A stretch of 32,234 bases of DNA from Luminiphilus sp. (lineage in GTDB: Bacteria > Pseudomonadota > Gammaproteobacteria > Pseudomonadales > Halieaceae). Positions 3,652 through 7,545 of this stretch are shown here, piece by piece. The DNA lies in NCBI GenBank assembly GCA_012270045.1, contig JAAXJC010000169.1:1-32234 (forward strand). The letters are read 5' to 3'. The notes under the pieces were generated by a model. That model had not been told where the DNA came from, did no database searches, and saw nothing but the letters and a program-made list of their open reading frames with translations. Each line of letters opens with the position of its first letter. The stretch's first letter is position 1. Both the position numbers and the translations under genes were made by a program.

Positions 3652-4182
3652 ATGACGTCACTAGGCCACCCCCAACAGCTTTTGAGACCGGTGGCCCTGA
3701 TCTTTGCATTATTGCTAGGGTGGTCCCAACTGGCGACAGCGGCAACTTTGTCCGATGCGACCCCGGCTCCCGAATTCACCTTGCCACTGGTGGCCAACGG
3801 CGAGGGTGACATCAGCCTGCTCAACCTGAGGGGATCTGTTGTTTATGTGGATTTCTGGGCGTCCTGGTGCGGCCCCTGCCGATTGTCACTCCCCGCACTG
3901 GATACTCTCTACAGGGAGTTCGGGGATCAGGGTTTCGCGGTGACCGCGGTCAGCGTGGATGTGGTTGAGGAAGACGCCCTCGATTTCCTGAAACGCTACC
4001 CTGTCAGCTACCCGGTCGCCATTGACAAGACCGGTGCGGTGCCCCGCAGCTATTCGGTGAACGGCATGCCCTCGGGCTATCTGATCGATAAAGCCGGCAA
4101 GGTTCGGTCGGTTCACGTTGGCTTCAAGAAGGGCGATGAGGCCGCGCTGCGAGAAGAAATCAAGGCCTTGCTGGCGGAATAG
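3652..4182 (+). CDS. TlpA/ResA-like periplasmic thiol-disulfide oxidoreductase
   Basis: A 176-residue protein with an AAGGA ribosome-binding site upstream. Residues 1-30 form a signal peptide ending ATA|A, so the mature protein is periplasmic. The thioredoxin fold follows, with active site WCGPC (Cys73 and Cys76) and the cis-Pro loop at Met139-Pro140 (NGMPSGYLID). TlpA/ResA proteins act as reductants or oxidants for specific exported partners, often in cytochrome or cofactor maturation. It is the first gene of a six-gene run; the next gene begins 4 bases after its stop and encodes a tiny Cys-ending lipoprotein (DUF4266), a plausible thiol partner. The family is certain from the motif; the redox direction and the substrate are unknown. 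Confidence 0.9.
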   Translation: MTSLGHPQQLLRPVALIFALLLGWSQLATAATLSDATPAPEFTLPLVANGEGDISLLNLRGSVVYVDFWASWCGPCRLSLPALDTLYREFGDQGFAVTAVSVDVVEEDALDFLKRYPVSYPVAIDKTGAVPRSYSVNGMPSGYLIDKAGKVRSVHVGFKKGDEAALREEIKALLAE

Positions 4183-4186
4183 TTCG

Positions 4187-4408
4187 GTGAGCGTCCCCCG
4201 ATTCGTTGCTATTGCCTGCCTGGTCACCTTGTCCGGATGCTCAGGCATTGAACCCGTGCCCGCCTGGGAGCGGGGCTACCTCGCCGACGAGGGCATGCAG
4301 TGGCAGGCCAACCCCCGGGAGGCCAAATTCGAAGGCCATGTCTACACCAGCAAGGAAGCCTCCTCCGGCGGCGCTGGTGCAGCGGGGGGCGGCTGTGGCT
4401 GCAACTAA
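4187..4408 (+). CDS. DUF4266 small lipoprotein with C-terminal CGCN
   Basis: A 73-residue protein. I chose the GTG at 4187 because it gives a compact lipoprotein signal (LVTLSGC, Cys18) just after the TlpA stop. Ser at +2 after the lipid-modified Cys predicts outer-membrane sorting. The mature chain is only about 56 residues: PVPAWERGYLA, then MQW, then HVYTSKEASSGG, a Gly/Ala-rich tract and a terminal GGGCGCN. This layout is that of the DUF4266 family, which has no established function. The two terminal Cys could be a metal or thiol site served by the TlpA-like protein, or an attachment point; that is inference. Its last 14 bases overlap the start of the DUF3570 gene. Confidence 0.8.
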   Translation: MSVPRFVAIACLVTLSGCSGIEPVPAWERGYLADEGMQWQANPREAKFEGHVYTSKEASSGGAGAAGGGCGCN

Positions 4409-5585
4409 CGCTGGGGCTTCGCCGGTAGCGCCAACACCAACACCACGCAAAACACCGCTGCTCACCGCCCTGGGGGCCTCGGTCGCGACACTGCCCGCCT
4501 ATCAGGGGGTGCTCGCCGATGCGCCACCCGAATTCACTGAAGTGGGACTGCGGTACAGCCGCTACAGCGAGGACAACCTGGCCACCGACAAGTTCATTGG
4601 TGGATCCCGGGAACGCTACGATATCGACGTCACCCAGTTCTGGATTGAAGCCCCTGTGGGCTCAAGTTGGTCCGTCGCCCTGGATGTCCAGAACGACTAT
4701 ATGAGCGGGGCTTCGCCCTGGTTTGTGGGCACGCAAGTGAATGGACAACCCGGCGTGATCATGAGCGGCGCCAGCATCCAGGACAATCGTGTAGAAGTGG
4801 GCGTGACGACCCGATACTTCTGGGCAGATGGCAATGCGGGTTTTAACATCACCCAATCCAAGGAAGACGATTACGAGGCTTTGGCGTTCGCCTTTGACGT
4901 TGCCTGGAACAGCGATGACAACTCGCGAACCTGGTCAGTCTCTGCCAGCAACTCGAACGATCGGGTGGAGCCGGTAGACGGCAACATACCCGTGTTCATT
5001 GACCGGGAAGACCTGGATACCCAATCACTGTACTTTGGCGTCAGCCAGATTCTGTCTCGCACCGCCATCGTTCGAGTGGGTCTCAGTTACACCCAGAGCG
5101 AGGGGTATCTTTCCGATCCCTACAAGCTGTTCGACCAGCGTCCGGACGAGCATCAGCGCAGTGCGCTCACCTTCGGGTACCGCAAGTTTTTCACCGATTT
5201 CCAGGGCGCATTGCAGGTCGACTACCGGTTCTACTCCGACGATTGGGGCACCGACTCCCACACGGTGGAGGCGGCCTGGCACCAGAATTTTGATCGCGTC
5301 ACGCTGATGCCCTACCTGCGCTACTACACCCAGGGGGAAGCTGATTTTTTTGGCGTTACCGCAGACCTGGGCGCCGACTTTTACGCAGATGACTTTCGGC
5401 TGTCCTCCTATGGCGCCTTCACCCTGGGCCTGAGAAGCACCCTGCAGCTGGGCGACTGGCAGATTGAAGGTCAGCTCGAGCGCTATGAAAGTGACAACGA
5501 CTGGGGGCTTTACAGCGGCGACGCCGCACCGGCACTGGTCGACTTTTGGCGTGCGACCGTGGGCATCACCTGGCGCTTTGACTGA
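4395..5585 (+). CDS. DUF3570 outer-membrane-type protein
   Basis: About 396 residues from the GTG at 4395, which has a G-rich ribosome-binding-like stretch before it; a GTG at 4377 is also possible. Residues about 18-41 (RKTPLLTALGASVATLPAY) form a signal-like segment ending VLA|D. The rest is dominated by alternating polar and aromatic strands (RYSRYSEDN, YFGVSQIL, YRFYSDDWG, LMPYLRYYTQG) and ends WRATVGITWRFD, with a terminal aromatic residue near the end as in outer-membrane beta-barrels. It matches the DUF3570 family, which is found next to DUF4266 and ApbE genes. A role as outer-membrane partner of the small lipoprotein is likely, but its function is unknown. Confidence 0.8.
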   Translation: MAATNAGASPVAPTPTPRKTPLLTALGASVATLPAYQGVLADAPPEFTEVGLRYSRYSEDNLATDKFIGGSRERYDIDVTQFWIEAPVGSSWSVALDVQNDYMSGASPWFVGTQVNGQPGVIMSGASIQDNRVEVGVTTRYFWADGNAGFNITQSKEDDYEALAFAFDVAWNSDDNSRTWSVSASNSNDRVEPVDGNIPVFIDREDLDTQSLYFGVSQILSRTAIVRVGLSYTQSEGYLSDPYKLFDQRPDEHQRSALTFGYRKFFTDFQGALQVDYRFYSDDWGTDSHTVEAAWHQNFDRVTLMPYLRYYTQGEADFFGVTADLGADFYADDFRLSSYGAFTLGLRSTLQLGDWQIEGQLERYESDNDWGLYSGDAAPALVDFWRATVGITWRFD

Positions 5586-6525
5586 CAGCCTGCTCAGCAC
5601 CAGCCACCGACTGCAGGTCATGGGCGGGCCCGCGACCATCACCGTCCAGCACTCCCCTAACGACGCTGCCCTCGCCCGCTCCGCCTGCGACCGGGCCGAA
5701 GACACACTGCATACCCTTGAGACCCGTTACAGCCGATACCGCCCGGACAGCCTTATTAGCAAAATAAACGGGCGAGCCGGTTCAGACGTCTGGACAGCAC
5801 TGGACGACGAGGCACTGGCCCTGTTGCAGTTCTGTCACGCGCTGTGGACCCAGAGCGACGGGTTGTTTGATCCCACCGCAGGCATCCTGCGCAGGGTCTG
5901 GGACTTCAAAACGGGACGACCCGGCAATCCTGAGCAAATACCCGAGCTGCTGCAGCGGGTCGGCTGGTCCATGGTGTCCCTTGAGGAACACAAGGTTCGT
6001 CTGGAAAGGCCCGGCATGGAATTGGACCTCGGTGGCGTGGTCAAGGAGTATGCCGCTGACAAAGTCGCCCAGCAGTTGCGTGAGCAGGGCCTTGTCTGCG
6101 CTTTGATCGAACTGGCGGGGGATGTGGTGGCCATGGGGGAACCACGGCCGGGCCGGCCCTGGTCCGTGGGTATCAGTGATCCGGCACGGCCAACTGAAGC
6201 CTTGCTGACCGTAGAGTTGGTTAATGCCGCCCTGGCAACCAGTGGTAATTATCAGCGGGTGCTGGAGATCGGGGGCAAAAAATACAGCCATTTCCTGAAC
6301 CCCCGCAGCGGCTGGCCCGTGGCAGGGCCCGCGAGCATTTCGGTCATCTCGGATACCTGCCTCACTGCGGGTGCGGTAGCCACCGGGGCCTGCTTACACG
6401 ATGATGATCAGCGTCCTGTTTGGTTACAGCGAGCGGGCCTGCCCTGGCTGGAAGTGAATGAGCAAGGCCTGATGTCAGGGCCTCTACGAGACGCTCATCC
6501 GGGGAACAGGCTACAGCGTACCTGA
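5578..6525 (+). CDS. Divergent ApbE-like FAD:protein FMN transferase
   Basis: About 315 residues. The only start before the conserved core is a TTG at 5578 that overlaps the DUF3570 stop by 8 bases; ATG 5620 would cut into the first strand. ApbE landmarks are present in order: ETRYSRYRPDSLISKIN, DGLFDPTAGILRRVWDF, LDLGGVVKEYAADKVA, SGNY, SHFLNPRSGWPV (238-247) and TAGAVAT (263-269). ApbE enzymes move FMN from FAD onto Thr/Ser of target proteins. Two sites differ from the usual family: HxxDPxTG reads HFLNPRSG, and the ADAxAT motif, whose Asp I recall as a Mg ligand, reads AGAVAT (Gly265). There is no signal peptide, though most ApbE proteins are exported. Activity is therefore uncertain; the fold assignment is firm. 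Confidence 0.85.
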   Translation: MTDSLLSTSHRLQVMGGPATITVQHSPNDAALARSACDRAEDTLHTLETRYSRYRPDSLISKINGRAGSDVWTALDDEALALLQFCHALWTQSDGLFDPTAGILRRVWDFKTGRPGNPEQIPELLQRVGWSMVSLEEHKVRLERPGMELDLGGVVKEYAADKVAQQLREQGLVCALIELAGDVVAMGEPRPGRPWSVGISDPARPTEALLTVELVNAALATSGNYQRVLEIGGKKYSHFLNPRSGWPVAGPASISVISDTCLTAGAVATGACLHDDDQRPVWLQRAGLPWLEVNEQGLMSGPLRDAHPGNRLQRT

Positions 6526-6555
6526 GGGGTACACATTCTCTCGGCTCATGTTCTC

Positions 6556-6900
6556 ATGCCAGACAAACTTTACTTCGACGGTCACTGTCCACTCTGTGTC
6601 AAGGAGATGGATCGGCTGGAAAAAATAAAAGGCGACAGTCTGGAGCTCGTTGACATTCATAGCCTGGACGCCGCGGACAGCCCGGTTGACAAGGACACCT
6701 TGCTTCGGGTGCTGCACCTTGAACAGGATGGCGGCGTCATGAGGACCGGTATCGACGCCAATGTCGCTGCCTGGCAGCACACGCGCTACGGCATCCTCTG
6801 GCGCTGGATGCGCCTGCCACTTATCCGGCCCGTAATCGAGGTCGTCTATGATCGCTGGGCGCGCTGGCGCTACGATCGGCTGTACCACGATCAGGGCTGA
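6556..6900 (+). CDS. DUF393 (DCC-type) thiol-disulfide oxidoreductase
   Basis: A 114-residue cytoplasmic protein that begins LYFDGHCPLCVKEMDRL, the DUF393/DCC motif with a CPLC pair (Cys11 and Cys14). This family has a thioredoxin-like fold and is named for its conserved DxxCxxC-type start. No signal peptide is visible. It lies 30 bases after the ApbE gene and 3 bases before the flavin-reductase-like gene, so it is probably in the same transcript. Its substrate is unknown; DUF393 proteins are found in many gene contexts. Confidence 0.85.
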   Translation: MPDKLYFDGHCPLCVKEMDRLEKIKGDSLELVDIHSLDAADSPVDKDTLLRVLHLEQDGGVMRTGIDANVAAWQHTRYGILWRWMRLPLIRPVIEVVYDRWARWRYDRLYHDQG

Positions 6901-6903
6901 ATC

Positions 6904-7545
6904 GTGATAAAGCTTGATGCGGCTGCCTTGGAGGCCTTGCCGTCCCGGTACCGGGCCAACCTGATCAATGGCATCACTGGCTACAAGCCGGCGCTGCTGG
7001 TGGGTACTGCCAGTGCCGAGGGAGCCAGCAACCTGGCGGTGTTTTCCAATGTGTTCCACGTCGGCGCCAGCCCGCCAGTGCTGGGCCTGATTGTCAGACC
7101 CCGTCCGGAAGGTACCGAACGTCACACGCTGGACAATATACTGTCAAACGGTGCATTCACCCTGAACCACATAACCGATCGTCTGTTGCCTCAGGCACAC
7201 CAGACCTCAGCCCGCTACCCCAGAGACCAGTCAGAGTTCAGTGCAACCGGCCTTACTGAGGAATGGTTGGAGGGTTTCGCCGCACCTTTTGTTCATGAGG
7301 CACCGGTGCAGTTGGGCATGGGTTTGATCGAACATCGGGAACTCGCGGTCAACAACACGCACCTGGTGCTCGCTGCCCTGCGGGTGCTGCGCTGCCCTAC
7401 CGCTGCGGTCCGGGAGGACGGGTCCGTTGATCTGGCCACGTTGGGCACCCAGGCCATCTGCGGTCTCGACAGTTATCACTCCCCCGGCCAAGGCATACGC
7501 TTTTCCTATGCCAAAGCTGACAAGCCGGTGCAACGGCTGGACTGA
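6904..7545 (+). CDS. Flavin-reductase-like (FMN-binding split-barrel) protein
   Basis: 213 residues from a GTG start 3 bases after the DUF393 stop, with AGGG a few bases upstream. The sequence fits the flavin reductase-like domain: PALLVGTASAEGASNLAVFSN near the N-terminus, then PPVLGLIVRP, HTLDNILSNGAFTLNHI and a C-terminal barrel portion. Members bind FMN or FAD non-covalently and either reduce it with NAD(P)H or use it as a cofactor. Its position after ApbE and DUF393 suggests a shared flavin and thiol redox function, but that is inferred from context only. A stem-loop follows at 7576-7604. Confidence 0.78.
   Translation: MIKLDAAALEALPSRYRANLINGITGYKPALLVGTASAEGASNLAVFSNVFHVGASPPVLGLIVRPRPEGTERHTLDNILSNGAFTLNHITDRLLPQAHQTSARYPRDQSEFSATGLTEEWLEGFAAPFVHEAPVQLGMGLIEHRELAVNNTHLVLAALRVLRCPTAAVREDGSVDLATLGTQAICGLDSYHSPGQGIRFSYAKADKPVQRLD

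Follow-up and report, generated by a model that had tools for sequence, protein, structure and literature searches.

In Chlorobium luteolum, the DUF3570 protein receives flavin mononucleotide (FMN) from its cognate ApbE at two [S/T]GA[S/T] sites, as was shown with signal-truncated forms of the two proteins co-expressed in Escherichia coli, DUF3570 being recovered mostly in the insoluble pellet (Meheust et al. 2021, eLife, PMC8238504). The clusters published in that article, of which the accessible part of the text is considered here and below, contain ApbE, DUF3570, a thioredoxin-like protein, DUF4266 with a CXC tail and often DsbD, although 316 of them have no linked DsbD; their function is given as uncertain. 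In the literature searched, this was the only article to mention DUF3570 or DUF4266; a follow-up study of flavinylated proteins from 2024 (PMC11334425) does not name DUF3570. Here, we compare with these clusters a stretch of 32,234 nucleotides (contig JAAXJC010000169.1 of assembly GCA_012270045.1, henceforth the window) from the 3.36-Mb genome of Luminiphilus sp. (Halieaceae), in which six open reading frames (ORFs) follow one another on the plus strand at positions 3652-7545. Judged by its sequence, the core of this unit (TlpA, DUF4266, DUF3570 and ApbE) belongs to the published DUF3570/ApbE system, and we hold with about even confidence that it is this flavinylation system and, at the same time, a haem-free outer-membrane outlet for thiol-derived electrons.

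All sequence features of the published system are present: the same four families, two [ST]GA[ST] motifs, an ApbE gene adjacent to DUF3570, the CXC tail of DUF4266, a thioredoxin and, elsewhere in the genome, DsbD. The window differs from the published clusters in its unlinked DsbD and in the surroundings of the cassette, which is set into a TlpA-DCC-FlavRed unit specific to the genus. A barrel, a flavin loop on the surface side and a signal-less ApbE of the subtype reported below were not found described in the accessible text, from which the word "barrel" is absent. An initial annotation of the window had described the four-gene core as a recurrent set with no assigned function; the recurrence was confirmed, and the second part needs correction because DUF3570 is a published ApbE substrate with two FMN sites. 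The features are as follows.

3652-4182, plus strand: TlpA/ResA-type periplasmic thioredoxin; ATG start; signal peptide; Pfam Redoxin, 1.6e-24.
4187-4408, plus strand: DUF4266 small lipoprotein of 73 amino acids; GTG start; Pfam DUF4266, 4.8e-21.
4395-5585, plus strand: DUF3570, signal peptide and predicted barrel, ApbE substrate by homology; GTG start; Pfam, 2.4e-52.
4704-4715, plus strand: flavinylation motif 1, S104-G-A-S107, with D101 ahead of it (D-x-x-S-G-A-S); Ser107 is the predicted FMN site.
4764-4775, plus strand: flavinylation motif 2, S124-G-A-S127, in the same loop as motif 1 but at its opposite end; Ser127 is the predicted FMN site.
5578-6525, plus strand: ApbE (flavin adenine dinucleotide:protein FMN transferase), signal-less G/E subtype; TTG start; Pfam, 7.8e-69.
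6556-6900, plus strand: DCC1-like (DUF393) thiol oxidoreductase (DCC), CPLC motif with Cys11 and Cys14; ATG start; Pfam, 2.6e-19.
6904-7545, plus strand: flavin-reductase-like split-barrel protein (FlavRed); GTG start; Pfam PF01613 Flavin_Reduct, 1e-13.
4187-6525, plus strand: facultative cassette DUF4266-DUF3570-ApbE, between TlpA and DCC.

Genes, order, strand and the five intergenic gaps (4, -14, -8, 30 and 3 bases) were exactly as initially annotated, and Pfam agreed on every family, each assignment lying well above the curated cut-off. Promoter- or terminator-like sites inside the six-gene unit did not exceed the number expected by chance.

The two thiol proteins of the core have conserved cysteines. 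The redox motif of the window TlpA is WCGPC (Cys73 and Cys76), and its CxxC is kept in nearly all relatives. In DUF4266, the lipobox cysteine (Cys18) is followed by serine, which predicts sorting to the outer membrane, and the C terminus reads GGGCGCN, with Cys70 and Cys72. All 71 DUF4266 homologues end in GCGC plus one or two residues, and none has aspartate at position +2. An AlphaFold2 model of DUF4266 from the single sequence reached a predicted local distance difference test score (pLDDT) of 53 and informs neither for nor against a role of this protein in electron transfer. Proteins of the TlpA/ResA type usually act as reductants and receive their electrons from DsbD or a relative; the genome of the window contains one full DsbD, unlinked to the cluster, and DsbD was linked to DUF3570 clusters at three other loci (L114, L116 and L119).

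The predicted DUF3570 barrel and its flavin loop

The AlphaFold2 model of DUF3570, computed from an alignment of 65 sequences, had a mean pLDDT of 90.6 and a predicted template modelling score of 0.85, with disorder limited to the signal region. It comprises 16 barrel strands and a small hairpin within the loop that joins strands 3 and 4; turns of 2-4 residues lie on one side, and most loops on the opposite side, including the loop that carries the motifs, have 13-25 residues. The C terminus (...TWRFD) places an aromatic residue at the end of the last strand, as in outer-membrane barrels, which the protein also resembles in its signal peptide, its even strand count, the short turns on the periplasmic side and the long loops on the outer one. 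The nearest folds were the barrels of BamA, PgaA, PelB, BcsC, CymA and OmpG (Z 17-22), a fold in common that says nothing of the function of DUF3570. From the model and these matches, which bear out the initial annotation of an outer-membrane-type protein, DUF3570 is predicted with high confidence to be a 16-stranded outer-membrane beta-barrel.

In the model, the SGAS motifs at residues 104-107 and 124-127 mark either end of the strand 3-4 loop. Outer-membrane barrels have both chain ends in the periplasm, so that this loop should face outward, and both flavinylation sites are predicted with good support to lie on the cell-surface side. The aspartate of the flavinylation motif rule D-x-x-[ST]GA[ST] (PMC12052999) is present at one of the two motifs (D101, motif 1). 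Given the motifs and the demonstrated modification of a homologue, Ser107 and Ser127 probably carry covalent FMN. The 45 most conserved DUF3570 positions are distributed unevenly (Fisher p 3e-6), 41 belonging to the outer half or the outer loops and 4 to the inner half, and the conserved outer residues are mainly charged or aromatic (e.g., Y57, D101, R132, D189, W284, R309 and D333).

The closest named matches to the window DUF3570 came from Luminiphilus metagenome assemblies (Halieaceae; 82-84% identity). Two DUF3570 ORFs, of 920 (L098:4866-7625) and 904 codons (L105:3930-6641), were about twice the usual length, with one full DUF3570 match each, and may contain a fused extra domain. At three loci (L046, L051 and L052), DUF3570, and at L046 also ApbE, was broken across two or three frames, owing to assembly errors or decay.

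The ApbE subtype

In E. coli ApbE, metal 1 is bound by D280, T284 and the carbonyl of T166, and metal 2 by E169 (PMC4767422). A 2025 review lists this aspartate, whose counterpart in Vibrio cholerae ApbE is Asp285, as one of three conserved residues of the catalytic centre (PMC12052999). Alignment of the window ApbE to the solved structures placed Gly265 at the position of E. coli D280 and Glu157 at that of E. coli G170; the active-site residues Ser222 and His238 and the metal ligand Thr269 are kept. Among 79 different ApbEs, the two positions switched together without exception, 65 proteins having Gly and Glu (G/E) and 14 having Asp and Gly (D/G). The active-site Ser and His were kept in all ApbEs, only two lacked the Thr, and the Glu lies beside the metal site in all 65 G/E proteins. 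The latter formed one clade (SH-aLRT 100) in a tree from which the two columns had been removed; the swap was therefore probably one ancient event and not 65 independent ones. A large majority of the G/E genes (60 of 65) adjoin DUF3570; the remaining five are located close to the end of a contig or locus or at a distance of a few kilobases.

Judged by hydropathy, the window ApbE has neither a signal peptide nor a lipobox, and no start codon in its ORF yields a signal-like hydrophobic N terminus. By the same criterion, a hydrophobic signal segment is present in most D/G ApbEs and absent from nearly all G/E ApbEs. This suggests that FMN would be attached in the cytosol, ahead of export. The C. 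luteolum assay, with its signal-truncated proteins and mostly insoluble DUF3570 (PMC8238504), fits a barrel that is flavinylated while unfolded. The window enzyme shares the fold family and the active-site Ser, His and Thr with the canonical periplasmic ApbE/Ftp proteins of E. coli, V. cholerae and Treponema pallidum, from which it differs by its missing export signals and the two replacements. The ApbE of the Klebsiella fumarate reductase also lacks a signal peptide and acts in the cytosol (PMC12052999), but its target remains there, whereas that of the window ApbE would be an exported outer-membrane barrel.

In 19 Chlorobiaceae genomes, the G/E type was the sole ApbE match, so that it must be the responsible enzyme if DUF3570 is flavinylated there, and all sampled Chlorobiaceae ApbEs beside DUF3570 were of this type. 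Since the published active pair comes from C. luteolum, which is linked to the subtype through its family, Chlorobiaceae, the G/E subtype is likely active. The second ApbE of the window genome is canonical, adjoins nqrD/E/F and presumably serves NQR.

The D/G ApbEs adjacent to DUF3570 belong to a subgroup in which SSAS mostly replaces SGAS. They mark a second kind of DUF3570 cluster (L036, L128, L132, L133 and relatives), with a canonical, signal-bearing ApbE; around L128, small OMP_b-brl barrels are encoded upstream and a TPR protein downstream.

Cassette and trio

DUF3570 was present in 73 of the 276 gammaproteobacterial genomes of a class-wide draw. We inspected 40 DUF3570 loci of this draw by eye, some of them cut by contig ends, and found DUF4266 close by in 38, a TlpA-type thioredoxin in 35 and ApbE in 28. 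The association of the core genes is not due to chance, and the co-occurrence of DUF4266, DUF3570 and ApbE that the initial annotation proposed to check holds across the class. It also proposed to check how often DCC and FlavRed follow: neither was beside DUF3570 at any of the 40 loci, and both were seen there only within the genus of the window. As to neighbours that might hint at an electron acceptor, no recurrent theme emerged beyond DsbD (3 loci), DUF1501 (3 loci) and the small barrels of the subgroup with canonical ApbE. DUF1501 was directly upstream of TlpA-DUF4266-DUF3570 in its three gammaproteobacterial loci (L041:5083-6390, L124:2985-4268 and L125:5248-6564). Proteins with RTX calcium-binding repeats were encoded beside the cluster at one Chlorobiaceae and one gammaproteobacterial locus (L034:6647-7861 and L037:7681-9966).

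Within the genus, the six genes resolve into two modules. In 20 congeners, TlpA, DCC and FlavRed form an uninterrupted trio without DUF4266, DUF3570 or ApbE between TlpA and DCC, about 80-220 bases separating the TlpA stop from the DCC CxxC codon. As in the window, whose flanks contain type IV pilus-like genes, DUF3014, recX and recA, 18 of these 20 trios are followed by DUF3014 and, where the contig runs on, by RecX and RecA. Several trio-bearing congeners show no DUF4266, including G017 (100% complete) and G004 and G010 (97%). Conversely, about ten congeners have DUF4266-DUF3570-ApbE elsewhere, without adjacent TlpA, DCC or FlavRed, and several of them also have the trio. The six-gene order is kept in six other loci of the genus. 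In a tree of TlpA, all the Halieaceae proteins fell into one clade, whether or not the cassette was present (SH-aLRT 100), the window TlpA being orthologous to that of the cassette-free trios. The six-gene unit of the window is thus an optional cassette inside a genus-wide TlpA-DCC-FlavRed trio, usually beside recA, and its description as a usual set of four genes enlarged by two was not upheld. DCC and FlavRed are unlikely to be dedicated parts of the flavinylation system because trio and cassette each occur apart.

FlavRed relatives were present in 33 of 56 related genomes, mostly without linked DUF3570. The FlavRed tree needs two module changes, its long outgroup branches being unreliable. 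The placing of the Halieaceae TlpAs among DUF3570-linked TlpAs hints at cassette loss or relocation, a reading that depends on midpoint rooting. Spread by plasmids was considered and rejected, as DUF3570 had no match in PLSDB. In one genome (G032), DCC-FlavRed is encoded once more outside the six-gene unit, at the edge of a contig (L143:1-936); this further copy may be an assembly duplicate. In the literature searched, nothing relevant was found on DUF393 together with a flavin reductase.

Proposed role and alternatives

In the proposed outlet, the signal-less ApbE would attach FMN in the cytosol to the still-unfolded barrel, ahead of export and assembly, a step placed there because the cognate ApbE has no signal peptide. 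Electrons would pass from cytosolic thioredoxin through DsbD to TlpA, from TlpA to the paired CXC cysteines in the tail of DUF4266, the outer-membrane lipoprotein, and from there to the two FMNs of DUF3570 and on to an acceptor at the cell surface. DCC and FlavRed would belong to the separate genus-wide trio with TlpA and would not be required. Barrel and flavinylation are well supported; we infer the electron flow and its partners. The initial idea of an envelope complex with thiol and flavin cofactors appears right in this respect. The proposal resembles the MtrCAB porin-cytochrome conduits in its barrel-based electron transfer at the outer membrane, and the Mtr barrel 6r2q_B was among the fold matches (Z 16.0, rmsd 8.4), but such a Z is common to many unrelated barrels. 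Unlike MtrCAB, the window cluster encodes no haem protein, its cofactors would be covalent FMN, and there is no sequence relation.

Several observations weigh against this proposal. Electron transfer by any DUF3570 system was neither shown here nor found in the literature, and a pair of FMNs located at the outer end of a barrel does not alone span the membrane, the DUF4266 step being conjecture. Mean conservation was equal between the outer and inner halves of DUF3570 (p 0.56), the skew being limited to the top positions. In addition, cytosolic attachment is not universal, as the clusters with SSAS use a canonical, signal-bearing ApbE. The complete sequence of events, namely cytosolic flavinylation by a remodelled ApbE, export with the flavins on, and a surface FMN pair that acts as a haem-free, thiol-fed outlet, is regarded as less likely than not.

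Two alternatives concern the destination of the electrons. The flavinylated barrel might be an uptake porin for assimilatory metal reduction, with Fe(III) or Cu(II) being reduced at its vestibule or within it and the reduced ion then let in. The 25 published DUF3570 clusters with the ferrous-iron transporter VIT1 (PMC8238504), the charged and aromatic residues of the conserved outer vestibule and a TonB-dependent receptor that adjoins the cassette of one congener (L061) agree with this idea, which we nevertheless consider unlikely: that receptor was the one uptake-related protein among about 30 neighbours Pfam-scanned at other loci, and the pilus-like, DUF3014, recX and recA flanks of the window offer none. 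The system might instead exist to oxidise the thiols of DUF4266 and TlpA, the FMNs being the oxidant and O2 or another surface acceptor the sink, in the service of envelope disulfide formation. The almost invariant CXC tail and the thiol activity of TlpA-type proteins would suit such an oxidase; it is rendered rather improbable by the usual role of TlpA/ResA-type proteins as reductants and by the linkage of DsbD to clusters, both at the three loci above and in the published set.

The other two concern the parts involved. If the local G/E ApbE were inactive or otherwise employed, the canonical NQR-linked enzyme could flavinylate DUF3570 in the periplasm, and the loss of an aspartate that is both a conserved catalytic-centre residue (PMC12052999) and a direct metal ligand (PMC4767422) makes this worth weighing in a genome with two ApbEs. 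The retained Ser, His and, with two exceptions, Thr, the Glu gained in every G/E protein, the 19 Chlorobiaceae genomes with the G/E type alone, and the working Chlorobiaceae pair in a family in which all sampled DUF3570-adjacent ApbEs are G/E nonetheless leave little room for it. Finally, all six genes might form one dedicated pathway in which the barrel system obtains its thiols and its flavin, reduced or free, from DCC and FlavRed, much as initially supposed. Tight spacing and the six further loci with the same order speak for it. Since trio and cassette are each found without the other, this was not retained as the default reading, and it seems very improbable in view of the trio at the same syntenic place in cassette-free, in part 97-100% complete congeners, the cassettes without DCC or FlavRed in about ten others, and the absence of both genes from the class-wide loci.

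In the literature searched, the coverage of which was incomplete, we did not find a barrel with a surface-side flavin loop, the G/E ApbE subtype or the cassette-in-trio layout. DUF3570 clusters are common, with a function left open since 2021. Should the flavinylated protein be an outer-membrane barrel whose flavin loop faces the surface, "function uncertain" becomes a set of specific tests, for which the cassette-free congeners are natural controls. The Asp-to-Gly and Gly-to-Glu swap provides a ready sequence marker for the ApbE subtype. If the signal-less ApbE acts before export, covalent flavins must traverse the export and barrel-assembly machinery. The proposed outlet, if true, would represent a new type of electron conduit in the outer membrane; about a quarter of the sampled gammaproteobacterial genomes contain DUF3570.

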